Positions 2,878 through 20,693 of a stretch of DNA of 26,111 nt are shown here, one piece after another. The translations under genes were made by a program, and so were the position numbers. The stretch's first letter is position 1. Each line of letters begins with the position of its first letter. Origin of the DNA: a virus; IMG/VR virus record IMGVR_UViG_3300020581_000029, positions 1-26,111 of that record; one strand, 5' to 3'. Under the pieces are notes generated by a model. It saw only the letters and a list, made by a program, of their open reading frames with translations. It searched no databases and was not told where the DNA came from.

Positions 2878-3431
2878 ACCTCTTCTACATCGTATACCAG
2901 GTTGTGCCTCGAGATCCTCCTTCTAGTTGGGTGGATCTCGAGCAACAACTGGTGTTCATCTCACGTACGAAGGCTGAACACTACATCAAAAAACATCAGG
3001 GGATATTTCTCCTTCAAGAAATGTGGGCTCAGAGATGGATTGAAGGGAAACCGTCCCCTGTAAAATTCAGAGAAGCTAAAAGCTGGAGGAAAAAGAAAAT
3101 GGCACTTCCACTCTCACTTCAGACCAGAATCATGCGGACAATCACTAGATTCGCAGCAGATCACAAGATGAAGGAGGAGGTTGTTGAAAAGATCCTCAAA
3201 GATATTAACGAGGATCAGATTCTCTCAGAATTAGGGCTGGACACCTCTGCTACTGTAAGAGCCATGATTGACTATCACTCTGAGGATAAGCAGGACCTCA
3301 GATATGCGGATCTGCTGCTGTATGTTGGACCAAGAGATTTCCAGTGGCGAATGCGCGATGGAGAACTTGTTGGAGCAGGTACGCGTGTAGAAGGAGGGAT
3401 CATAGATGAAGACTGTAGTCGCCGTTCTTGA
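2874..3431 (+). CDS. Hypothetical protein with possible internal start
   Basis: A 185-aa protein of unknown family, coupled to the FtsK-like gene by an ATGA overlap. The first 75 residues form one unit (starting MNLFYIVYQVV) ending in a basic run. Residue 76 is an in-frame methionine (ATG 3099) preceded by a good AGCTGGAGG site, so the helical second half, which begins MALPLSLQTRIMRTITRF, may also be made alone. No motif was recognised. The last 26 bases overlap the next gene. Confidence 0.6.
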   Translation: MNLFYIVYQVVPRDPPSSWVDLEQQLVFISRTKAEHYIKKHQGIFLLQEMWAQRWIEGKPSPVKFREAKSWRKKKMALPLSLQTRIMRTITRFAADHKMKEEVVEKILKDINEDQILSELGLDTSATVRAMIDYHSEDKQDLRYADLLLYVGPRDFQWRMRDGELVGAGTRVEGGIIDEDCSRRS

Positions 3432-3897
3432 CACCATGTGGGGAGAGCGAAATGCTAGAGCCCCACGATATTTCCAAATCAACCCTAACAACCGATCTGG
3501 GAAAATGCTGTACAGATTGGTCGGTCCGTACAGAAGGCTCTGGGTCACAAATTCCTGTCGGGAGATGGTTAACAATGCTCGCCGGCATGGTAAACCAGAT
3601 CCTGGATGGCTGGCCGAAAACCTGCGTCGTCTGAAGCCAGATCTAGTCCTCGTCTGTGGAAAGATAGCTCAGAAGACGTTCCGAGAGGCTTGTCCTATGA
3701 AGTGGGATGGATGTGATGATATATCCATCCCGCATCCAGCTGCTAGGAACTGGAGTCAGAAGCAGATCAAACGGATCTCCAGAAAGATTGAGAAGAAGCT
3801 GGGAGATCCAGTTGAGGAAGTCTGTATGGTCTGTTGGGAGCCAGCAGATCCAGACCATCCTCACAAGAAATGCAATAGGTTGTGGAGGATCTTGTGA
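3406..3897 (+). CDS. Uracil-DNA-glycosylase-fold protein with C-terminal zinc site
   Basis: A 163-aa protein. The middle reads LKPDLVLVCGKIAQKTF (about 76-92), followed by ISIPHPAARNW (107-116). These match the UDG superfamily's second beta strand with its LG-A helix and the HP(S/A) motif, though the N-terminal catalytic GE-PG motif is not evident. It may therefore be a non-catalytic or divergent UDG-like protein. Residues 140-156 (C140, C143, H153, C156) suggest a small zinc site. AAGGAGG precedes the ATG. The UDG-Pol fusion at 17760 contains a fuller UDG domain. Confidence 0.6.
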   Translation: MKTVVAVLDTMWGERNARAPRYFQINPNNRSGKMLYRLVGPYRRLWVTNSCREMVNNARRHGKPDPGWLAENLRRLKPDLVLVCGKIAQKTFREACPMKWDGCDDISIPHPAARNWSQKQIKRISRKIEKKLGDPVEEVCMVCWEPADPDHPHKKCNRLWRIL

Positions 3898-10807: not shown

Positions 10808-11410
10808 GTGTACGATGTAAGAAGAGCACTCAAGAAATACAGAGGTTTGATCAAATGGACGGCAAGAAAGTACGCAATCAGAGGAAATTTCCGTCTATCC
10901 ATACCGGATCTAGAGGCAGAGGGCTTGTTAATGCTCGTGAAATGCTGCAGATCCTTCCCGAAAGGGCATGGAAGGTTCGGAAGGTACTTCAAAAGAGCAT
11001 GGTACAATCACCTGAAAAGTCTGATCCGATTTGGTTATCAGGACAAGCGTCTAGGAAGGGAGGTGGAACTTGAGGAAGCCTTCGAAGTCGCTCCTCGGGA
11101 TCAAATTGATCCATTTATTTCCCGTATGAAAACTAGAGCCAATGAGCTCAGTCCTTTTCTATCAGAGGACGCAAGGAAGTTCTTGATGGTGCTTGTTGAG
11201 CCAAGTGAGGAGGTGATGGAATACGCGTGGCGAGATTATTGTAGGAAGAGAAAGTTGCTTTCACAAGGTCTCACTGTGCGTGGTGGTAAAAAGTTTCGTA
11301 TCCGGATTCGGCATATTCGTGGAGCGCTCCACATGTCGAGACGCAGGATACGAGAGTTAGTACGGGAAATCCGCAGTGCTTACCGCAAATCTAAAGGGGG
11401 AAAGAAGTAA
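10808..11410 (+). CDS. Sigma-70-like factor (region 2 plus C-terminal HTH)
   Basis: A 200-aa basic protein. Residues about 10-70 match sigma region 2: LIKWTARKYAIRGNFRLSIP, then DLEAEGLLMLVKCCRSF (the DLxQEG helix) and GRFGRYFKRAWYNHLKSLIR (the FxxY-W helix that opens the -10 element). The C-terminal part (ALHMSRRRIRELVREIRSAY) looks like a recognition HTH. Such proteins redirect host RNA polymerase to phage promoters. The start is GTG 10808 with GTAGGGGG upstream. Its target promoters are not known; the repeated leader motif at 10757 and 20691 is a candidate. Confidence 0.7.
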   Translation: MYDVRRALKKYRGLIKWTARKYAIRGNFRLSIPDLEAEGLLMLVKCCRSFPKGHGRFGRYFKRAWYNHLKSLIRFGYQDKRLGREVELEEAFEVAPRDQIDPFISRMKTRANELSPFLSEDARKFLMVLVEPSEEVMEYAWRDYCRKRKLLSQGLTVRGGKKFRIRIRHIRGALHMSRRRIRELVREIRSAYRKSKGGKK

Positions 11411-12696
11411 TGAGCAAGAAGAAGGGCAGTAAGAAGAAAAAGAACAAGCGGAAGAAGGGCAAGCGGTCCCGGTCGGACGACGACGAAGAGGAGGAAACTA
11501 GCGAAGACGACGAGGACGACGACTCAGACGACGACGATGATTCTGAGGACGACGACGGGGACGATTCCGACGACGACTCAGATGATGACGACGACGATGA
11601 TGAGTCCGAGTCCAAGAAGAAAAAGAAGAAGAAAAAGAAGAAATCCAAAAAGTCCAAGGACGATGACGACGACGATGATGACGACGACTCGTCCGAGGAC
11701 GATGACGACGATGACGACTCCGATTCGGATGATGATGACGATGATTCCGACTCGGACGATGATGACGATGACGATGATGAGAAGTCGTCTAAGAAAAAGA
11801 AAAAGAAGAAAAAGTCAAAGAAGTCGGATGACGACGATGACGATGAAGATTCCGACGACGATGACGAGGACGATGACTCTGACTCCGATGACGATGACGA
11901 CGACGAGGATGAGGGAAAGAAAAAGAAGAAAAAGAAGAAGAAGAAAAAGTCCTCGGATGATGACGATGAAGACGAGGACGATGATGAGGACGAGGAAGAA
12001 GATGACTCGGACTCAGACGATGATGACGATGATGATGAGGGGGACGCGAAAGCGTCCTCCCTCGTCCAGATCGATGTAGACAAGTACAAACCCAAAGCTC
12101 CATCCATGACTATCCCGCCAGGGATTGAGGATTGTTTTGGTAGGTACAACGATCCTGACGTCCCGGAGTGTCAGAAGTGCGTTGAATTCAAACACTGTCG
12201 TGCAGTGCAAAGGGCTCGTCAGGAAGACGAAGAAAAGCAAGGAGGAAAGAAAAAGAAGATGAAAAAACACAAGAAGGACAAGAAGCACAAGTCGGAGGAA
12301 CGAGAAGAGCGGGAGGAAAAGAAGTCGAAGAAGAAATCGAAGAAGGAAAAGAAGGAAAAGAAGAGCAAGAAGTCGAAGGGGCTGTCTGATGCCGTGCAAG
12401 AGATTCTGTCTGCTTCCAAGGCCAAGAAGTATGGGGAGATCCAAGGGAAGGGATCCAAGATCTTCATCAAGGTCAATGGTCGCAGAACTGTACGAATCAC
12501 AAGAGCCAACACGGAGGATAAGTTTGTTGTCCAACTGCGGTCGAAGGTGGAACCGAAGAAACTCGGACTCAATAAGAAGAACTGGAAGAAGTCTGGGAAT
12601 CGGAAGTTCAATTACGTCGGCGATGCTGGAAAGGTTGCCAAGTCTCTGCGTATCGCCTTCAAGAAGCTCACCGCAGATTCTGACGACGACGAATAA
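11410..12696 (+). CDS. Block polyampholyte protein with C4 module and C-terminal domain
   Basis: A 428-aa protein. Residues 1-210 are four alternating pairs of lysine-rich blocks and Asp/Ser/Glu blocks, reminiscent of the alternating blocks of eukaryotic Nopp140/SRP40, and must be disordered. About 234-268 carry the IPPGIEDCFGR module with CX11CX2CX5C, as in the 69-aa protein at 9822. A second lysine/glutamate linker follows (about 275-325), then a folded-looking domain (about 328-420; starts LSDAVQEILSASKAKKYG) and an acidic tail. The acidic blocks use GAC/GAT/TCC codons. The reverse-strand Ser-rich frame is a shadow. Likely nucleic-acid or condensate related; function unknown. Start overlaps the previous stop (TAATG). 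Confidence 0.7.
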   Translation: MSKKKGSKKKKNKRKKGKRSRSDDDEEEETSEDDEDDDSDDDDDSEDDDGDDSDDDSDDDDDDDESESKKKKKKKKKKSKKSKDDDDDDDDDDSSEDDDDDDDSDSDDDDDDSDSDDDDDDDDEKSSKKKKKKKKSKKSDDDDDDEDSDDDDEDDDSDSDDDDDDEDEGKKKKKKKKKKKSSDDDDEDEDDDEDEEEDDSDSDDDDDDDEGDAKASSLVQIDVDKYKPKAPSMTIPPGIEDCFGRYNDPDVPECQKCVEFKHCRAVQRARQEDEEKQGGKKKKMKKHKKDKKHKSEEREEREEKKSKKKSKKEKKEKKSKKSKGLSDAVQEILSASKAKKYGEIQGKGSKIFIKVNGRRTVRITRANTEDKFVVQLRSKVEPKKLGLNKKNWKKSGNRKFNYVGDAGKVAKSLRIAFKKLTADSDDDE

Positions 12697-12775: not shown

Positions 12776-13105
12776 ATGCCAATTAGTGAAATCCCACCAA
12801 AGAGTGTGGTCTCGATGGGGATCTGCATTGGCTGCAAGAAGGAATGGTTCATGTCAGAGCGAGAGCACATGGACTGGTTCAAGCTGGTTGCAGAGAAGAA
12901 TTTCCATTGGCCTAGGCGATGTAAGCCCTGTCGTGCTTCAAAGAGATCTGGTCCTCGTCTAACTCTTGATGAAATCCATACTAGGATTAAGGTCATGATT
13001 ACGAAAGCTGTCGATGAAGAATACAATGGAGATCCAGATACTCTAGCACAGGATCTAACTGATGTAGCTACAAATCTGGAATTGGTAATGAGGAAACGTC
13101 AATGA
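12776..13105 (+). CDS. Zinc-ribbon domain protein
   Basis: A 109-aa protein. C17-x2-C20 followed by KEWF and, after a helix, RRCKPCR (C49, C52) is the pattern of the small zinc-ribbon family with a FxxxKGF-PRRCKPCR type ending. The helical remainder has no recognised domain. TTAGGAGGG precedes the ATG; the stop overlaps the next start (ATGA), linking it to the hypermodification-like gene downstream. Such ribbons commonly bind nucleic acid or ribosomal partners. Confidence 0.65.
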   Translation: MPISEIPPKSVVSMGICIGCKKEWFMSEREHMDWFKLVAEKNFHWPRRCKPCRASKRSGPRLTLDEIHTRIKVMITKAVDEEYNGDPDTLAQDLTDVATNLELVMRKRQ

Positions 13106-14088
13106 GATCCAAAGAGCTCTGGAAAAAGCTGCCTGATGTAGAACTCATAGAAGAGAACTTGAAGGGCTTCTGGGAGTTCGTAGCTGAGAGGCAGAGGATT
13201 TGGTATCGTCGCTTTGTCAAAAGACTACCTCCACCCTGGACGAAGGACCGTCTTCTCAAGAGCTACAAATTCACCAACGTCTATCGTGAATTAGATTATG
13301 GGACGATCTGGTACATGAAACATGTGGTTCCCTTTGCTAAGAAGAGTGTCAGAGAGATGCTAACCAGAGATAGAAAACCGTTCTACGACAAGAGGATTAA
13401 CCTTCTCTGGCTGACAGTCATGTATCGTTTAGTCAATCGTGTGGAGACATTTGAAGAGGTTGGCTTTCTACCATACTTCTGGTGGGGATCAAAATGCAAC
13501 GAGTGGCGTGAAAAATTGGAGAAGAGGAAGAGGCGTGGAGATCAGATCTTCACCAATGCCCATCTTACCTTACCAACCCACACTGTTGGCCAGACTAAGA
13601 TAGACAAATACATGGAAGTCCTGGACGATCTTCACGAAGTGAAATTGCTTCCAGTGTTCACAGCCATCCAAGAGGCGAAAGGTTTAGAGGACGTTTTCAA
13701 AGCTCTTCTCAAGATCAAGTGCGTAGGTCGGTTCATCGCCTATGAAGTATGCTGTGATCTGATATTAGCTAAGGCAATCCCATTCACAGAGAATGATTGG
13801 GTCAATCCTGGTCCTGGTTGTATGAGAGGGATAAATCTGATTTGGCCAAGGCATCATACAAGGGAAGAGTATCAAGGTGACATCCGTTGGCTGATGAAAC
13901 GTCAGGAAGCCATGTTCAAGGGATACGATCTGAAATTCCATCAGTACAACCACCCTCTAACATTGAGAGGAATTGAACACTCCCTTTGCGAGTACCAAAA
14001 GTATTACAAGATGCAACGCAAAGTTGGAAAACAGAGGATGCATTTCGTACCACGAGATTGGGGTCAGAAGATACTGGAATTCAAATGA
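13102..14088 (+). CDS. aGPT-pyrophosphorylase / HMUDK-helical-like DNA base hypermodification protein
   Basis: A 328-aa all-helical protein. FTNVYRELDYGTIWY (residues 57-71) and NPGPGCMRGI (about 235-244) match, from memory, the conserved motifs of the alpha-glutamyl/putrescinyl-thymine pyrophosphorylase and 5-hmdU-kinase helical families, which share a DNA-glycosylase-like fold and act on thymine-derived bases in phage DNA. There is no P-loop kinase domain. Residues such as K209-region KIKCVGRFIAYEV resemble the helix-hairpin-helix of glycosylases. It is coupled to a zinc-ribbon gene upstream and a glycosyltransferase downstream (ATGA overlaps). The exact subfamily, substrate and activity are inferred. 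Confidence 0.6.
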   Translation: MRSKELWKKLPDVELIEENLKGFWEFVAERQRIWYRRFVKRLPPPWTKDRLLKSYKFTNVYRELDYGTIWYMKHVVPFAKKSVREMLTRDRKPFYDKRINLLWLTVMYRLVNRVETFEEVGFLPYFWWGSKCNEWREKLEKRKRRGDQIFTNAHLTLPTHTVGQTKIDKYMEVLDDLHEVKLLPVFTAIQEAKGLEDVFKALLKIKCVGRFIAYEVCCDLILAKAIPFTENDWVNPGPGCMRGINLIWPRHHTREEYQGDIRWLMKRQEAMFKGYDLKFHQYNHPLTLRGIEHSLCEYQKYYKMQRKVGKQRMHFVPRDWGQKILEFK

Positions 14089-15455
14089 AAAGAATAGCTA
14101 TCTTGATGTTTCAGGTACACAACAATCTAGGTGGAATCTTACCATCCACGATCAATCTCTGTGCCGGTCTTGAGGAGGCAGGATATGAACCGCGTGTTTT
14201 TCATGCTGAGTGGCGTGAGCATATTACTGGTATGGAAGGTCGCATCGAAAGGACCAATGGTGCTGGTTACGGACTTCGCCACTGGATCAGCGGGGATCGC
14301 GCTCATCTTGTTGGTGATTCTAAGCATGCACATCCATATAAAGGAAAGAAGGCAGCGAACGAACTCAAAGAAAGACTCTCAGAATATGATGGAGTGATCC
14401 TAGCTACATCTATTCCTTCCTATGTAGCCAAAGGGATGAAGGGGAACAAAGATTGGAAGACAGTATTGAAGCATGGGAAGCCAATGATTGGAATTGTCAG
14501 AGACTGTCACTGGCTTCGTTTGTCTCCTCATATCCTTCCAATGAGACATCGCTTTCTAGCTCTAGCAGGAGTTCATCCAGCTGCATACTATTCACTGAAA
14601 AACTTTCCTGGTAGGATAGCTTGTCAGGTGAACCCATTCGACATTTCCAAAGCAGATGAGGACTATGAGAAAGACTGGGAAAAGGTCTGTGTCACCTCCT
14701 GGTTCAAAAAGTGGAAACGCATGGATGACGGAATTCGTGCAGCACCATTCATGAAACCAATCCATCTCTACATTGCCGGCGGTGGTCTAGAACTCTCTTA
14801 CATGCTGGCTGAAAAGACTGAGGAAGAATACACTGGTAGGAACTGGGAAGGCTATCATCGGAAAGTGATGAACTATAGGTGGAAGCCAGAAGATTCTAGT
14901 TATAGGAGAAACCATGGCTGGAAAAACAAGTCGATCTTTAGAGTTGCAGAACAAGAAGGAAATTTCCATTATGTGGGATTCAAGCTTGGACGAAGTATCG
15001 AAAAGCTGCAAGAGTCATCTGGCGGGCTTGTGGATTTCTCTTATCATTACAAGTGGGGGGAACACTTCAATCGTGTTCTCATTGAGGCCATGCTTGTTAA
15101 GTCCATTCCGTTTGCTAGGCCATATGGGATTTCGGACAATGAAGCCGGTCATGGCAAAATCTTTGACAACACAAACGTTGTTCTCATTCCAGAAGACTCG
15201 AGTCCTAAACGTACTGGCGAAATCATTCGGGACGCAATGCAAGATCATACTCTCAGAAGTGGTATTGTTAAAAATAATCTCAGAAAGCTTGAGATCTTCG
15301 ATCGTGAAACAGTGGCTAAGAATTACGTTCGCCTCCTGGAAGGACGGCAAGACATTGGTCTTTTCGGGGTCACCGAAGGAAGGGCAGACAGAAAAGTCAT
15401 CTCGATGATGGAACGATTTGATGCTATTCGCAGATTTCCACGACTGAAGGAGTGA
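14085..15455 (+). CDS. GT-B glycosyltransferase, possibly a DNA-base glycosyltransferase
   Basis: A 456-aa protein. The N-terminal half opens with a Rossmann strand (KRIAILMFQVHNNLGGILPS), the glycine-rich loop of GT-B enzymes. The C-terminal half contains HFNRVLIEAMLVKSIPFA, the helix-loop of GT4-type nucleotide-sugar binding sites with an early Glu. It ends with RFPRLKE (RFPR at residues 450-453). The ATGA overlap with the aGPT-like gene suggests a joint role, for example adding sugar to a hydroxymethylated base; a cell-surface target is also possible. I chose ATG 14085; the frame extends to 13986 inside the preceding gene. Confidence 0.7.
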   Translation: MKRIAILMFQVHNNLGGILPSTINLCAGLEEAGYEPRVFHAEWREHITGMEGRIERTNGAGYGLRHWISGDRAHLVGDSKHAHPYKGKKAANELKERLSEYDGVILATSIPSYVAKGMKGNKDWKTVLKHGKPMIGIVRDCHWLRLSPHILPMRHRFLALAGVHPAAYYSLKNFPGRIACQVNPFDISKADEDYEKDWEKVCVTSWFKKWKRMDDGIRAAPFMKPIHLYIAGGGLELSYMLAEKTEEEYTGRNWEGYHRKVMNYRWKPEDSSYRRNHGWKNKSIFRVAEQEGNFHYVGFKLGRSIEKLQESSGGLVDFSYHYKWGEHFNRVLIEAMLVKSIPFARPYGISDNEAGHGKIFDNTNVVLIPEDSSPKRTGEIIRDAMQDHTLRSGIVKNNLRKLEIFDRETVAKNYVRLLEGRQDIGLFGVTEGRADRKVISMMERFDAIRRFPRLKE

Positions 15456-15456
15456 A

Positions 15457-15612
15457 ATGAATCAAAGAGAAAATCTTATCAGGAAAGCAAATCAGGAGTA
15501 CGAAATGGCAGGTCTTGCCTCACAAGCTGGTGATAAGAAAGCTGCTGCTGAGCACACGTACAAAGCCAAAGAGTTTGATCGTCAAGCTAGAGAATTGGAG
15601 AAGGAGGAGTGA
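15457..15612 (+). CDS. Small helical protein
   Basis: A 51-aa charged, alanine-rich, probably helical protein (MNQRENLIRKANQEYEMAGL...ELEKEE). The start lies two bases after the previous stop, near AAGGAG; the stop overlaps the next start (TGATG). Not recognised. Confidence 0.5.
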   Translation: MNQRENLIRKANQEYEMAGLASQAGDKKAAAEHTYKAKEFDRQARELEKEE

Positions 15613-15938
15613 TGGAAGATGATTATAGTGTGAAAGGTCCATATGGTATTGGCATAGCACAGCTTCCTGTACGTTGTACTTGTGAAGGTGGCTCTACTGA
15701 AGCTTGTCCACTTCATGCTACTCATAGAGAGTACCTGAGGATATTAGAAAAAGAGTTTCCTTGGGTCCACTGGAGAGAGCCAATCAATCTAAATGATTTG
15801 AAAGGACACGGTGGTGTGGCTTGTAGAATCTGTGTAGCTCGTCGTGGCATCAGAGGAGATCAGATACAATTTCTCCCAGTCTCTCTGGAAGGACATCACA
15901 AGCATCTCAGGGAATACCATCAGCTGGAAGGATACTGA
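15612..15938 (+). CDS. Zinc-finger-like small protein
   Basis: A 108-aa protein. C22/C24 with C32 and H35 may form one metal site; C71-x2-C74 with H95 to H103 resembles a C2H2 finger (SLEGHHKHLREYH). It follows AAGGAGG. It is the last gene before the TS-family operon leader. No enzymatic motif. Confidence 0.55.
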   Translation: MEDDYSVKGPYGIGIAQLPVRCTCEGGSTEACPLHATHREYLRILEKEFPWVHWREPINLNDLKGHGGVACRICVARRGIRGDQIQFLPVSLEGHHKHLREYHQLEGY

Positions 15939-15980
15939 ACCTTTTCTTCTCCTCCGCGTTCTATTATAGTAGGAGGAGAT
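15937..15980 (+). promoter_or_regulatory. Leader with sequestered ribosome binding site before the TS-family gene
   Basis: CTCCTCC (15949-15955) is complementary to GGAGGAG (15972-15978), the ribosome binding site of the TS gene, so the site can be hidden in a 7-bp hairpin. TGAACCTTTTC opens the leader, as in the leader at 20691. The structure suggests translational control of the enzyme. Confidence 0.5.
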
Positions 15981-17129
15981 ATGAGGGTTTACCGTGGAAA
16001 CGGTCTGGGAGATTTCTACTACGCCTTGCTGAGAACCATCACCAGTCATGGTAGAGAAGTTGTTGTTCGTGGACACAGATGTCTGGAACTTCCCGAACCA
16101 GTTTCACTAGTGTATGAGAAGCCTGGATACTGTTGGATGAACATCCCGAAAAGGAGATTCAATCCATTCTTCGCTATGGCTGAGGTATATTGGATATTGA
16201 GTGGTGATGATAGCGCAGATTGGATTGGGTACTACAACAAAAGGATGTTCACTTTCAGAGACGGAGAGAACGATCAACTCCATGGCGCATACGGCAAGAG
16301 AATCAGGAAGTGGATCTATCCGGCAGTTGGCACGATTCCGGGTCGCCCTGACGAAGGGAAGTCTTGGCATCCGGAATACTTGGATCAAATCCGACACGTC
16401 GTTCGTAAACTTCGTGAAGACCCAAACAGTCGTCAAGCTGTCATCAATCTATGGGATCCAGTCAGAGACAACCTCATCAAGTCGAATGACATTCCGTGCA
16501 ATAATATCATCTATTATTCGCTTCGTGATGGGGTTCTAGATCAGACTGTCGTTATCAGGTCAAACGACGTGGTCTGGGGCACTCCATATAACGCAGTCCA
16601 GTATACTCATCTTCATGCTCTTGTTGCTGGCTGTCTGGAAGCCAGGATGGGGACGTTCACTTATGTAGTTCAGAACATCCACTATTACTTCGATCTTTAC
16701 AAAGAGACGTTGGCAAATCTTCTTGAGAAAGCTCATGAGCCGCCTCAGGGTGGACCAGGAGCATTGATCATCCCTAACTTTGACACGGTAACTATGGAGG
16801 ATTTTGATCTCCTTGGGATGAACGTTGAAACTATCTATCAAGCGTGGAGCAAGATCGCTTGGCTCCCATTGAAGCAAGCTCGCTTCATGGGTAATGGATA
16901 TTGGTGCCAAACAATCTCTTGGGTCCTTTGGATTCACAGGATTCTGAAAGAAGGGACTGAGAATCTGATGGACCAGGAGTCTAAACAATATCTAGCAGAG
17001 AGGATTCTGACTCTCGGCTCTCCCTTGGTAGAAATGATCCTAGACTTTACTTCTGAAATGACAAAGAGTAAGTTGCCTGGGGAGGTCGCTCAGATTTGTC
17101 AAAAGATGCTGCAACCGTCGAACAGTTAG
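15981..17129 (+). CDS. Thymidylate synthase family enzyme (possible dUMP hydroxymethylase)
   Basis: A 382-aa protein, longer than typical bacterial TS. The catalytic Cys lies in DIPCNN (C173), followed by RSNDVVWGTPYNAVQY with R193, D196, N204 and Y208. N204 occupies the position that distinguishes dUMP-specific (Asn) from dCMP-specific (Asp) members, so uracil is the likely base. The usual PCH is PCN here, and the C-terminus is extended. The reaction transfers a one-carbon group to C5, giving either dTMP or, as in phages with hmU, 5-hydroxymethyl-dUMP. Downstream of a hypermodification-like gene and glycosyltransferase, the latter is attractive but unproven. Confidence 0.8.
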   Translation: MRVYRGNGLGDFYYALLRTITSHGREVVVRGHRCLELPEPVSLVYEKPGYCWMNIPKRRFNPFFAMAEVYWILSGDDSADWIGYYNKRMFTFRDGENDQLHGAYGKRIRKWIYPAVGTIPGRPDEGKSWHPEYLDQIRHVVRKLREDPNSRQAVINLWDPVRDNLIKSNDIPCNNIIYYSLRDGVLDQTVVIRSNDVVWGTPYNAVQYTHLHALVAGCLEARMGTFTYVVQNIHYYFDLYKETLANLLEKAHEPPQGGPGALIIPNFDTVTMEDFDLLGMNVETIYQAWSKIAWLPLKQARFMGNGYWCQTISWVLWIHRILKEGTENLMDQESKQYLAERILTLGSPLVEMILDFTSEMTKSKLPGEVAQICQKMLQPSNS

Positions 17130-17395
17130 TAAAGCTTCTCAAAGATCTCAAATTCATACTAGACTGGGAAGATTGGTTGTCTCCCCAGAAATTTGATTGG
17201 AGTACGGAGACCCATCCTGGTGGATGGAAGCTAGGGATATCAGATGTAATGATGGAAGAGGTCCTGATCTTACAAGAAATTCAAACTCTACTTGGGGAGG
17301 AAGAATGGATCAAAATGAAAGATCGGATCCTAACGACAAGCAAATTGACGGAGAGCATTACCGAGCAAACAAGAGCTATCAGCATTGGGATCTAG
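17096..17395 (+). CDS. Hypothetical small protein, start uncertain
   Basis: A 99-aa frame starting TTG 17096, with GGGGAGG upstream, overlapping the TS-family stop by 34 bases and the DUF3310 gene by 91 bases. Residues 1-70 look protein-like (QLVKLLKDLKFILDWEDWL). The end is less convincing. No family recognised. Confidence 0.4.
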   Translation: MSKDAATVEQLVKLLKDLKFILDWEDWLSPQKFDWSTETHPGGWKLGISDVMMEEVLILQEIQTLLGEEEWIKMKDRILTTSKLTESITEQTRAISIGI

Positions 17396-17748
17396 TAGCA
17401 GATTATGGGCTGTCCTACTTCATTGGGAACATGACCAAATACGTCTGCCGCTGGAAAAAGAAGCACGGTCTGATAGATCTTGAAAAAGCACTCCATTATT
17501 TAGACAAACTGATGTCTCTAGAATCAAGCTATTGGTTCCTTCCTAAAATGAAACTCTTTCTGCCTACAGATACAGCCGAAAGATTCTGTGTAGAGCAAGG
17601 GCTAGGAGAACTTGAAACTGAGATTGTTCTACTGTCTGTTCAATATAGGAAGGGTGAAGACCTCGTGCCAATCCGTGAAAAGATAGTAGAATTGATATCT
17701 CAGGTCCACAAAAGGGAAAGACTTCCAGAACCTTACAACGCAGGTTAA
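17305..17748 (+). CDS. DUF3310 (SaV nucleotide-kinase-like) protein
   Basis: A 147-aa protein. Residues about 17-69 carry the DUF3310 signature: GEHYR, then GLSYFIGNMTKYVCRWKKKH, then GLIDLEKALHYLDKL. This family is widespread in phages and named after a Staphylococcus phage protein with suggested nucleotide-kinase activity; real activity is uncertain. The ATG at 17305 follows GGGGAGGAAG; the frame extends upstream to 17197. It overlaps the previous gene by 91 bases. Its position beside the TS-family gene suits nucleotide metabolism. Confidence 0.75.
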   Translation: MDQNERSDPNDKQIDGEHYRANKSYQHWDLVADYGLSYFIGNMTKYVCRWKKKHGLIDLEKALHYLDKLMSLESSYWFLPKMKLFLPTDTAERFCVEQGLGELETEIVLLSVQYRKGEDLVPIREKIVELISQVHKRERLPEPYNAG

Positions 17749-17759
17749 GGAGAATCTAG

Positions 17760-20447
17760 GTGGGTCTTACACTTAACGTCATCCGAGAACCGGATGAGTT
17801 CTGTAAGCCATGTGGCGCATACAAGACGTGCGACTCACCTATAATGAATGGGTCTGGTTCTGAGCATCCGATCTGGTTCTTCGTAGGAGAATCTCCTGGT
17901 GCTACAGAAGATGAATTGAACAAACCATTCCAAGGGCAAGCCGGTCGTCTATTGAAAAAGATGATCAAGGCTGTTGGAATCCCTCTGAAATACTGTAGGT
18001 TCTCAAACGTAGTGAAATGTAGACCTCCAGATAACAACATCAAATTCTATCCAAACATCATAGATCATTGCCGGCCGCACATCCTACGTGAAATCCATGC
18101 TGTAAGACCAAAAGTTGTTGTCCTTCTTGGGAACTCAGCTATAAAGAGCATTCTGAACAGAACAGGGATCACGAAGCTACATGGGGAAGTGTTTGATGCT
18201 GGCCCGTGGAAATATGTGTGCTCTCTTCATCCTTCATATTTCTTGCATAATGACACTCCAGCGGCTCTGAGGAAGTTCAGGGAAGCTCTTAAGATCGCGA
18301 AGAACACTGGTGACAAGAAAGCCTCTCTCCAAAAGAAGCGTAATCACATTATGGTAACAGACCATAAGACGCTTCAGGAGATGCGCGATCTATTGATGGC
18401 CCAGAAATATCTGGCTCACGACATTGAAGGCAGCACTCTGAATGCGTTCTCGAAGGTTAGAACACCTAGGATTGGGTGCGCTGGATATGCGTGGAGCGAT
18501 AACGATGCTTGTTGTTTTCCATTGGCTAGTAGAAGGGGAATCAATGTAAAGGTCCGACCAGAAGAATTTCTAGAGGTGATGAAAGAGGTAAACGAGAACG
18601 AGGACATTCGTCACATACTCCAGTTTGGGAACTACGATTACGTCTATCAGGCAGTCCTACATGACATCTGGATAGGTGGGAAGAAGCGTTGTGGGTATTA
18701 CGCTGACACAGGACAGATGATGTACGTCCTTGACGAGAGCAAAGGTGCTCCGAGAGGTTTGAAGGATTGGGCATATCGTCTTGGGATGGGAGGCTATGAA
18801 CTAAAGAAGAGGGAGTACGAAAGATCTCACAAGGAATGTAATTCGGCAGAAGGTGGGAATGCAAATAAGATTCCCATGCCTATTCTTGGTCCATATAATA
18901 TGGACGATAACATTGCCACGTGGAGGCTCTTCTGGAAGCTAAAGAAACGTCTAGTTGCACAGCGTCTCTGGGAACGACCGTTCCTATTCCCTCAAATGTG
19001 GCACGTATGGACTGCTTCCATCCTTGAAATCAATGGACTGAAAATAGATGCTGATCGTAACAAAGAGTTAGACCAAATCTTTACTGAGAAGATTGAGAAG
19101 GCTGACGAAGAGCTACACGATTATCCCCAAGTCAAGAAGCTGCAAAGCCTCAAAGACCGGGATATCATGCTGAAGATCTACGAGCGAGTAAAGAACTACA
19201 AACGCCCACCAGAATCGGTCAAAGATAAAGTTATTGAGCTCTTCGAGAATGTCCCGAAGGAAAAGAAGATTGTCAATCTTAACTCTCCTGAAAGCAGGAG
19301 AACGTTGGTCTTTGACATTCTGAAATACAAGCCTCTGTGGAGAACTAAGAAAGGGAAAAACTGGTCAGTTGAAAAGGAGGTATTAGAGAAGCTTCTCCAG
19401 CAGCGTCAGAGTGTAGTATTGAAACGTATGGTAGAGAGGAATTCTCTGGTCTCTGCAAAGGACAAATACATTGATCCTGTGGTTGCAGAGTGGATGGGGA
19501 CCGATGGTGGGACTCATACTGATTACAGTCCTCATGGTCAGTTGACTGGCAGAGTTTCTAGTAAAGAACCAAATCATGAAAACCTTCCGAAGCATGGTGA
19601 TCTAGCCAAAGATCTACGCTCTCAATTCGTATCGTCTGGTCCAGAGTACTACATCCTGGAGCAGGATAGTAAGCAGATTGAAATGCGTCTGTTCTGTGAT
19701 AGGGCACAAGACGATATCATGATGGAGGAATTCAACCAAGGAAAAGACCCTCATGCAATGGGAGCGATGGCAGGGTTCGAGATCAGTGAAAAGGATTGGC
19801 TGAAGCTACCAGATGAGGAGAGGAAACACCTTCGCTTCCTAGCTAAGTCTGCAATTTCCTTCGGTCTGCTGTATGGTAGAGGACCAGAAGCTCTAGCTGA
19901 GGAATTCCAGAAGTCTATTGGTTGGGCCAGAAGATTCATCCGTAGGTACTTCGCGAAATATGATGACTGTTTGATCTATAGGCAGGAACGTGAAGATTAC
20001 ATCATTGATCATAAGATAGTCTATAGCCACTTCTTCAGACCAAGGCGCTTGCCGGAAGTGGATGCTGATAGTGAGGCGGTGGTTGCTGAGGCTATCAGGC
20101 AAGGGATCAACAGTCCAATTCAAGGTGACGCGTCTGATATAACGTGGGTGGCTCTCCATAGATTGAACAGTTGGCTTCGTAAGTACCATATGAAGTCCAA
20201 GGGGATCATTGCAGTCCATGACGCTGCCTATGTCGATACTCACTACAAGGAAATGGAAGATGTCGTTGAGAGGTTGTATATGTACATGACCGATCGGAAA
20301 TTCATTGAAAAGATGACTGGATGGTATTGCACAGTTCCATGGAATACGGACTGTTTCATTGGTCCTCATCTTGGGAAGAGTACAGAGTTGGCTGTCAAAG
20401 GACCTGGTGAATTTATCGTACCAAAGGAATTCAAAGTGGCAGCTTAG
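17760..20447 (+). CDS. Family-A DNA polymerase with N-terminal uracil-DNA glycosylase domain
   Basis: An 895-aa fusion starting GTG 17760 after AAGGAG. Residues 1-190 are a family-4-like UDG: C15, C18, C24 and a later Cys suit the iron-sulfur site, then GESPGATED, PFQGQAG and LHPSYF. About 210-420 are a 3'-5' exonuclease (D221, E223; GNYDYVY; YNMDD). The polymerase has motif A DSKQIEMRL (D636), motif B R692, K696 and FGLLYG, and motif C HDA at 820-822, where the usual E is A. Fused UDG-Pol enzymes occur in SPO1-type phages with modified uracil. It replicates phage DNA; whether UDG removes uracil or senses it is unknown. Confidence 0.92.
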   Translation: MGLTLNVIREPDEFCKPCGAYKTCDSPIMNGSGSEHPIWFFVGESPGATEDELNKPFQGQAGRLLKKMIKAVGIPLKYCRFSNVVKCRPPDNNIKFYPNIIDHCRPHILREIHAVRPKVVVLLGNSAIKSILNRTGITKLHGEVFDAGPWKYVCSLHPSYFLHNDTPAALRKFREALKIAKNTGDKKASLQKKRNHIMVTDHKTLQEMRDLLMAQKYLAHDIEGSTLNAFSKVRTPRIGCAGYAWSDNDACCFPLASRRGINVKVRPEEFLEVMKEVNENEDIRHILQFGNYDYVYQAVLHDIWIGGKKRCGYYADTGQMMYVLDESKGAPRGLKDWAYRLGMGGYELKKREYERSHKECNSAEGGNANKIPMPILGPYNMDDNIATWRLFWKLKKRLVAQRLWERPFLFPQMWHVWTASILEINGLKIDADRNKELDQIFTEKIEKADEELHDYPQVKKLQSLKDRDIMLKIYERVKNYKRPPESVKDKVIELFENVPKEKKIVNLNSPESRRTLVFDILKYKPLWRTKKGKNWSVEKEVLEKLLQQRQSVVLKRMVERNSLVSAKDKYIDPVVAEWMGTDGGTHTDYSPHGQLTGRVSSKEPNHENLPKHGDLAKDLRSQFVSSGPEYYILEQDSKQIEMRLFCDRAQDDIMMEEFNQGKDPHAMGAMAGFEISEKDWLKLPDEERKHLRFLAKSAISFGLLYGRGPEALAEEFQKSIGWARRFIRRYFAKYDDCLIYRQEREDYIIDHKIVYSHFFRPRRLPEVDADSEAVVAEAIRQGINSPIQGDASDITWVALHRLNSWLRKYHMKSKGIIAVHDAAYVDTHYKEMEDVVERLYMYMTDRKFIEKMTGWYCTVPWNTDCFIGPHLGKSTELAVKGPGEFIVPKEFKVAA

Positions 20448-20456
20448 GAGGATGGG

Positions 20457-20693
20457 ATGAAAGGTTCTGGATTCTTGGGTTGGATCAAATGTGACATTCA
20501 TGGTAGGCAAAAAGCCTACTTTGTCTGTATCCACATTAAAACAGCCGAGGATATTTTTGAACGTACTGAGTGGACTCCGAAAGGAGGAGGTGATTTGATT
20601 TGTAAATTGGGTGGATCTTTCCATTCTGCAGGAGAGATCCTGCTTATGTGTGAAGCGCATTTGAGAGGAATGGGTTTACTTCCAGCAGCATGA
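20457..20693 (+). CDS. Small Cys/His protein
   Basis: A 78-aa protein with C12, H15, C24 and H26 and a later MCEAHLRG, giving several metal-binding candidates. TAGGAGG, partly within the polymerase stop, precedes the ATG. No known family; perhaps a small zinc finger. Confidence 0.5.
   Translation: MKGSGFLGWIKCDIHGRQKAYFVCIHIKTAEDIFERTEWTPKGGGDLICKLGGSFHSAGEILLMCEAHLRGMGLLPAA

Follow-up and report, generated by a model that had tools for sequence, protein, structure and literature searches.

In known systems, proteins of the PF18723 family are fused to, or encoded beside, a PF18748 5-hmdU DNA kinase, and in several of these systems a PF18724 (ADDT) protein is encoded close by. What, then, would such a protein do in a phage where its gene is joined to that of a glycosyltransferase (GT)? 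The question is raised by a 26,111-base IMG/VR fragment from an uncultured phage (IMGVR_UViG_3300020581_000029), the whole of which we refer to as the window. Between positions 12776 and 20447 all genes lie on the plus strand, and encode in order a Cys-rich protein, the PF18723 protein (hel), a GT, a 109-aa protein, a thymidylate synthase (TS)-family enzyme, a DUF3310 protein and a fusion of uracil-DNA glycosylase (UDG) with PolA. The features considered here are:

3406–3897, plus strand: second UDG-superfamily protein, stand-alone (PF03167, E 1.2e-7)
12776–13105, plus strand: 109-aa protein with two CxxC pairs (Zn-ribbon-like), ATGA-coupled to hel
13102–14088, plus strand: hel, HMUDK_hel (PF18723, E 2.9e-59), 328 aa, predicted HhH-GPD fold
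14085–15455, plus strand: GT-B, GT4-like retaining glycosyltransferase as judged from its EX7E motif (E326–E334) and structure model, 456 aa, ATGA-coupled to hel
15609–15938, plus strand: Cys/His-rich 109-aa protein, GTG start, a singleton cluster
15981–17129, plus strand: TS-family enzyme (PF00303, E 1.4e-28), predicted from residue alignment to be a dUMP hydroxymethylase
17197–17748, plus strand: DUF3310 protein (PF11753), TTG start uncertain, described in PHROGs as nucleotide-kinase-associated
17760–20447, plus strand: family-4 UDG fused to a family-A DNA polymerase (PF03167, E 8.8e-25; PF00476, E 2.2e-60)
20502–20520, plus strand: terminator-like hairpin 3' of the polymerase gene

ATGA overlaps join the first three genes of the cassette, at 13102–13105 (Cys-rich protein/hel) and 14085–14088 (hel/GT); the second of these had been reported in a first-pass annotation of the DNA, as had the UDG-fused polymerase just downstream, and both are as described there. 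In the UDG domain of the polymerase, the FeS cysteines and the GESPG and HPS motifs could be seen by eye. Homologues of the 12776–13105 protein are encoded immediately 5' of hel in four related loci (L001, L013, L014 and L103). The 15609–15938 protein had no Pfam or PHROG match, and clustering revealed no counterpart among the relatives. The cassette is surrounded by replication and repair genes (FtsK-like, HU, SSB, RecA/UvsX and a 5'-3' exonuclease), and the stand-alone UDG-like protein probably serves uracil sanitation. The hairpin is the sole plus-strand candidate between 12600 and 20600, a region in which terminator-like hairpins are not more numerous than in shuffled sequences; a promoter scan gave fewer matches than shuffles. 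No dCMP deaminase (PF00383) was found in the window or in the L001, L013 or L016 records.

Residues 20–306 of hel match PF18723 with 201 bits against a cut-off of 25, which is far above chance. The protein had been labelled 'aGPT-pyrophosphorylase/HMUDK-helical'. The profile search upholds the second part of this label; the first part is an old prediction for the family, which Pfam now names the helical domain of 5-hmdU DNA kinase, the amino-acid transferase being a separate family, PF18724 ADDT. Neither hel nor the GT had a match in NCBIfam, or among PDB sequences searched with HMMER. The structure model of hel is confident (pLDDT 91.3). Its nearest solved structure is PUGT (Z 11.0, rmsd 4.2 over 219 residues, 11% identity), which is gp46 of phage PaMx11, a 5-PmdU glycinyltransferase that, unlike hel in the role we propose, transfers an amino acid in the kinase pathway. 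Next among the structural matches are queuine salvage enzymes and then HhH-type DNA glycosylases. Comparison with OGG, AlkA and EndoIII gave VIA Z scores of 7–10, PUGT itself (Z 11) being no glycosylase; by model comparison, the fold of hel is of the DNA-glycosylase (HhH-GPD) type. The hel profile is also related to the ADDT profile (hhalign probability 94%). In a hairpin-motif alignment made by eye, the position of OGG1 K249, the catalytic Lys of bifunctional glycosylases, is an invariant Phe211 in hel; the Lys is also missing from monofunctional glycosylases, and hence Phe211 alone does not rule out glycosylase activity. A set of residues is invariant in kinase- and GT-associated hel proteins alike: R30, P45, W46, F57, N59, R62, D65, R109, F211, E215, N235, G237-P238-G239, E292, C296, E297 and K300. 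Since these residues are identical in the two settings, hel probably does the same job beside a kinase and beside a GT. We propose that it is the subunit that recognises and presents hmdU in DNA; the sequence and the model are consistent with an adaptor, shared by GT and kinase systems, that would handle hmdU-DNA.

The GT scored 16.3 bits against PF00534 (E 0.007), below the cut-off of 26.4. Its structure model is of modest confidence (pLDDT 63) but matches GT-B enzymes, as the first-pass annotation had suggested: Foldseek assigned a GT-B fold (E 1e-7), and VIA comparison gave Z 18.0 over 299 residues with PimA and Z of about 16 with T4 DNA alpha-glucosyltransferase (AGT), including its complexes with hmU DNA. 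An EX7E motif is present (E326-HFNRVLI-E334); both Glu residues are invariant between this GT and two GTs of L001, and only E334 is invariant in a wider set. T4 AGT thus resembles the window GT in fold, and its solved complexes include hmU DNA, but tblastn/HMMER searches detected no sequence homology between the two, and AGT acts on hmC without a helical partner (T4 has no PF18723). A tblastn search of 50,697 INPHARED phage records with the window GT gave no close match, and a viral-contig pattern search derived from the GT alignment returned the L001 record again and nothing else. Membership of the TAGT family (PF20691) was considered and rejected (hhalign probability 0.17%, no PF20691 match). 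We propose that the GT is an hmdU-DNA glycosyltransferase.

We aligned the TS-family enzyme with SPO1 gp29, M6-like and ViI-like enzymes, T4-like Td, T4 gp42 and the enzyme of phage G. Two positions, 147 and 177 in E. coli numbering, distinguish modification-linked from ordinary enzymes (PMC8670742). Cys173, Asn174 and Asn204 of the window enzyme occupy E. coli positions 146, 147 and 177, respectively, and the catalytic Cys (146) is therefore kept. Position 147 is Asn in the window, SPO1 gp29, M6-like and ViI-like enzymes, and His in T4-like Td; position 177 is Asn in the window enzyme, in keeping with the dUMP type assigned to it earlier, as opposed to Asp in T4 gp42 and phage G. SPO1 gp29 is a demonstrated dUMP hydroxymethylase, annotated as deoxyuridylate hydroxymethylase and cited as such in PMC5175136. 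The Asn residues at 147 and 177, together with the catalytic Cys, lead us to predict that the 15981–17129 product is a dUMP hydroxymethylase. Its gene accompanies hel in kinase as well as GT systems.

The absence of a P-loop hmdU kinase from the first-pass annotation was borne out by profile searches. At a threshold of E ≤ 1, the 26-kb fragment and the 92.9-kb L001 record were both free of matches to PF18748 (kinase) and PF18724 (ADDT), and a search of both with an iterated kinase profile was likewise negative. L001 carries the same cassette in permuted order (GT, GT, Cys-rich protein, hel, TS, UDG-PolA), in a record with no tRNAs. Both Pfam families were also not found in the records of L013, L014, L016, L142 and L130. 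Where a kinase is present, in the kinase-type members L103, L017 and L018, it adjoins hel. PF18748 fails on some diverged kinases, such as one of the two in L017, and the window is a 26-kb fragment, so that a kinase could sit elsewhere in the genome.

Relatives of hel were gathered from IMG/VR, GTDB genomes and phage records, and their neighbours scored with iterated profiles. After dereplication, 71 loci had 3 kb or more of sequence on both sides of hel. Within 5 kb of hel, 24 of them have a kinase only and 29 a GT only; two loci have both and 16 have neither, and hence the kinase/GT rule is not absolute. Fisher's test of exclusivity (p 3.5e-6) ignores the kinship of the loci and overstates the effect, since the loci are related; an independent-pairs test pointed in the expected direction, with about six opposite pairs to one same pair, but was not significant (median p 0.125). 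Exclusivity being non-significant once phylogeny is controlled, the strong result is recurrent exchange, and strict exclusivity near hel appears, from these sequences, to be a tendency. The hel tree shows at least 10 switches between the kinase and the GT state, including within the window's own clade (100/93), which contains L001 (GT), L014 (GT-like) and L103 (two kinases). A close pair of loci, L016 and L017, shares 95% DNA identity from inside the TS gene into polA, with hel 88% identical; between the flanks common to both, L017 has a radical SAM gene, ADDT and two kinases, and L016 has a SPASM radical SAM gene and two GT-like genes.

GT genes lie closer to hel than they would if placed at random; with a single representative of the marine clade, 14 loci gave a combined p of 6e-9. 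They belong to several families: TAGT (PF20691), the window-type GT-B, CgeB-like proteins and other candidates, the last two kinds having weak or no matches to GT Pfams. An example of TAGT in the marine loci is L057 10858–11631 (PF20691, E 8.6e-24), and hel is paired with a GT also in L142, from a distant lineage. The first-pass annotation had left the pathway as either incomplete or different from known ones. Our analysis favours 'different' and speaks against 'incomplete', no kinase being present in the 92.9-kb L001 record and GTs replacing the kinase in many lineages.

Two of the surveyed loci, L130 and L144, carry a PIG-L de-N-acetylase (E 2.5e-8 and 1.3e-6, respectively), and L144 also has an APS-kinase (E 2.7e-12) and, more weakly, matches to sulfotransferases. 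These extra genes fit sugar decoration as the theme of the GT branch, and the de-N-acetylase and sulfotransferase-like genes may point to elaborated, possibly sulfated, DNA glycosides.

The M6 (Pseudomonas) and ViI (Salmonella) loci resemble the window in that hel is clustered with a TS of the dUMP-hydroxymethylase type, and M6-like phages also have a family-A polymerase within the cluster. These kinase-type loci consist of 5-HMUDK (PF18748), HMUDK_hel (PF18723), ADDT (PF18724) and the hydroxymethylase; the window, in contrast, is without kinase, ADDT, PLP enzyme or radical SAM gene, and has an ATGA-coupled GT-B gene. Both PF18723 and PF18748 are present in EP75 (ViI-like) and SBSphiC, whereas SPO1, an hmdU phage with a comparable hydroxymethylase-polymerase neighbourhood, has neither, and the same is true of T4 and phage G. 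This distribution indicates that hel tracks modification beyond hmdU. PhiW-14 has PF18723. SP-15, whose hypermodified pyrimidine bears glucose, is without it, and hence hel is not required for every sugar-bearing thymine derivative.

The closest precedent is in pelagiphages of the HTVC023P type, for which the co-location of a TS, the helical protein (as aG/PT-PPlase1) and a putative beta-glucosyl-HMC-alpha-glucosyltransferase was already noted in 2022 (PMC9599517); that paper suggested a broadened function and took the helical protein as a pyrophosphorylase. Like the window, these phages have genes for the helical protein, a GT and a TS close to PolA, and no kinase was reported for them. L057 and other marine loci of our survey belong here; their GT is of the TAGT kind (PF20691), to which the window GT-B/GT4 enzyme is unrelated (hhalign 0.2%). 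The passages of PMC9599517 that we consulted make no mention of kinase/GT exchange, and none of the papers in the collection searched described the exchange or the GT-B version. The priority of the GT-paired hel finding is uncertain.

Taken together, the sequence, the predicted structures and the gene context make it likely that the cassette represents a branch of thymidine hypermodification that dispenses with the kinase and O-glycosylates hmdU in DNA. The protein families, the gene coupling, the TS residues, the GT-B fold, the absence of kinase and ADDT from the fragment, and the recurrent exchange are the observations; the reactions, the nature of the added group as a sugar, its attachment at the level of DNA and the function of hel as an adaptor are what we infer from them. 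The cassette would probably swap thymine for hydroxymethyluracil and then add a sugar. The TS-family enzyme would convert dUMP to 5-hydroxymethyl-dUMP; the family-A polymerase would incorporate hmdU, with its fused UDG domain and the second UDG clearing stray uracil; and after replication the GT-B enzyme would use a nucleotide sugar to glycosylate the oxygen of the 5-hydroxymethyl group. On the assumption that hel engages hmdU in DNA for the kinase in known systems, it would do the same for the GT, its DNA-glycosylase-like fold probably serving to flip the base. The predicted product, a glycosyl-hmdU, would resemble Base J (glucosyl-hmdU) of kinetoplastids, which is likewise O-glycosylated hmdU. 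Base J is made via oxidation of T within DNA; in the window, by contrast, hmdU would arise at the nucleotide level.

Four other explanations have to be weighed against this. The genome may simply be incomplete, with a diverged hmdU kinase and ADDT beyond the 26 kb and the GT either sugaring an amino-acid-type hypermodification or acting separately. The record is indeed a fragment, two loci have a kinase and a GT-type gene near hel, and PF18748 overlooks some diverged kinases, as in L017. However, the 92.9-kb record of L001 has the same cassette and no match to PF18748, PF18724 or the iterated kinase profile, five further records (L013, L014, L016, L142 and L130) are without both families, and a kinase, where present, adjoins hel (L103, L017, L018), which together make this explanation unlikely. 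Rather less probable is that the GT is an unrelated cargo gene, acting in host surface or protein glycosylation, that lies beside hel by chance. Phages often carry enzymes of the GT4 type as cargo, and in sequence the window GT is far removed from known DNA glycosyltransferases; against this stand its ATGA coupling to hel, the repetition of the pairing in L001 with permuted gene order and in the distant L142, an adjacency that exceeds chance, and the fact that the same position is filled by several GT families with no relationship to one another, among them TAGT, which is known to glycosylate DNA.

We give similarly little credence to the idea that hel is itself a catalytic transferase, like PUGT, with the GT or kinase merely preparing or extending the group. 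Its top structural match is PUGT, a 5-PmdU glycinyltransferase (Z 11.0), its profile is related to that of ADDT (hhalign 94%), and the polar residues among its invariant positions suggest a site for catalysis or binding; yet in kinase systems the kinase and ADDT are both separate from hel, and use of a glycosyl donor calls for a GT, which the cassette has. Finally, it is very improbable that the TS-family gene encodes an ordinary thymidylate synthase and that the phage has no modified base: this is the label in Pfam and PHROGs, but Asn stands in place of the active-site His, a substitution shared with the dUMP hydroxymethylase of SPO1, and the gene is found in company with hel in kinase and GT systems alike.

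Beyond the glycosylation of hmdU in this phage, we tentatively suggest a broader role for the family, for which the case is nearly balanced: PF18723 may be a general, catalytically silent 'hmdU socket' of DNA-glycosylase fold that presents hmdU in DNA to interchangeable transferases, with phages swapping the neighbouring enzymes. The transferases would be kinases or members of several unrelated GT families, and the socket, hydroxymethylase and polymerase would stay. If this is true, a family whose names and annotations tie it to a DNA kinase, or to pyrophosphorylase activity, does more than they imply, and phages commonly contain glycosylated hmdU that has been overlooked. The chemistry of DNA in many uncultured phages could then be predicted from sequence alone, and the GTs beside hel would be candidate enzymes for the glycosylation of hmdU in DNA. 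The pair L016 and L017, and the window with L103, L001 and L014, would form a natural module-swap series that may show how phages alter their DNA decorations against restriction.

Besides the UDG fused to the polymerase, the window encodes another member of the UDG superfamily, which suggests strong exclusion of uracil. A 428-aa protein also lies in the window, and relatives of it hold the same position in L001, L013 and L015-L017, loci with relatives of the helical protein HMUDK_hel (PF18723).

Window 3406-3897: UDG-superfamily protein
Window 11410-12696: 428-aa protein, mostly Asp/Ser/Glu tracts alternating with Lys tracts; its Cys-containing segment and C-terminal domain are conserved

The phages carrying L016 and L017 are near-identical; their effector modules are exchanged, and the same NAD-dependent epimerase gene lies downstream.

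L016 7232-9983: SPASM radical SAM gene and two glycosyltransferase-like genes
L017 885-4310: radical SAM gene, ADDT and two kinase genes

At five further loci (L021, L022, L026, L027 and L111), a GT-B gene lies a short way upstream of HMUDK_hel, and no thymidylate synthase (TS) gene was found within about 10 kb. In all of these except L111, a radical SAM protein is encoded between the two, and a PolIII alpha-like gene follows (Pfam-tested in L021).

HMUDK_hel homologues also occur in cellular genomes, where they are possibly proviral; PF18748 was not found in the Haloarcula or Nanoarchaeota locus.

L101 9941-10891: homologue, Haloarcula chromosome
L098 9971-10906: homologue, Nanoarchaeota MAG
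L102 1370-2353: homologue, Bacteroidaceae MAG, adjoining a TS-like gene

A nucleotidyltransferase and an annotated alpha glucosyl transferase are encoded close to a TS-family gene of Bacillus phage G whose product has Asp at position 177 (dCMP type); hmC glycosylation is possible in this phage.

L094 3311-4693 and 8001-9047: neighbouring features, Bacillus phage G

Two HMUDK_hel loci encode gene sets that may produce aminosugar or sulfated DNA glycosides.

L130 6156-9247: glycosyltransferase, TAGT, PIG-L de-N-acetylase
L144 3-4028: glycosyltransferase, PIG-L de-N-acetylase, APS kinase, sulfotransferase-like gene
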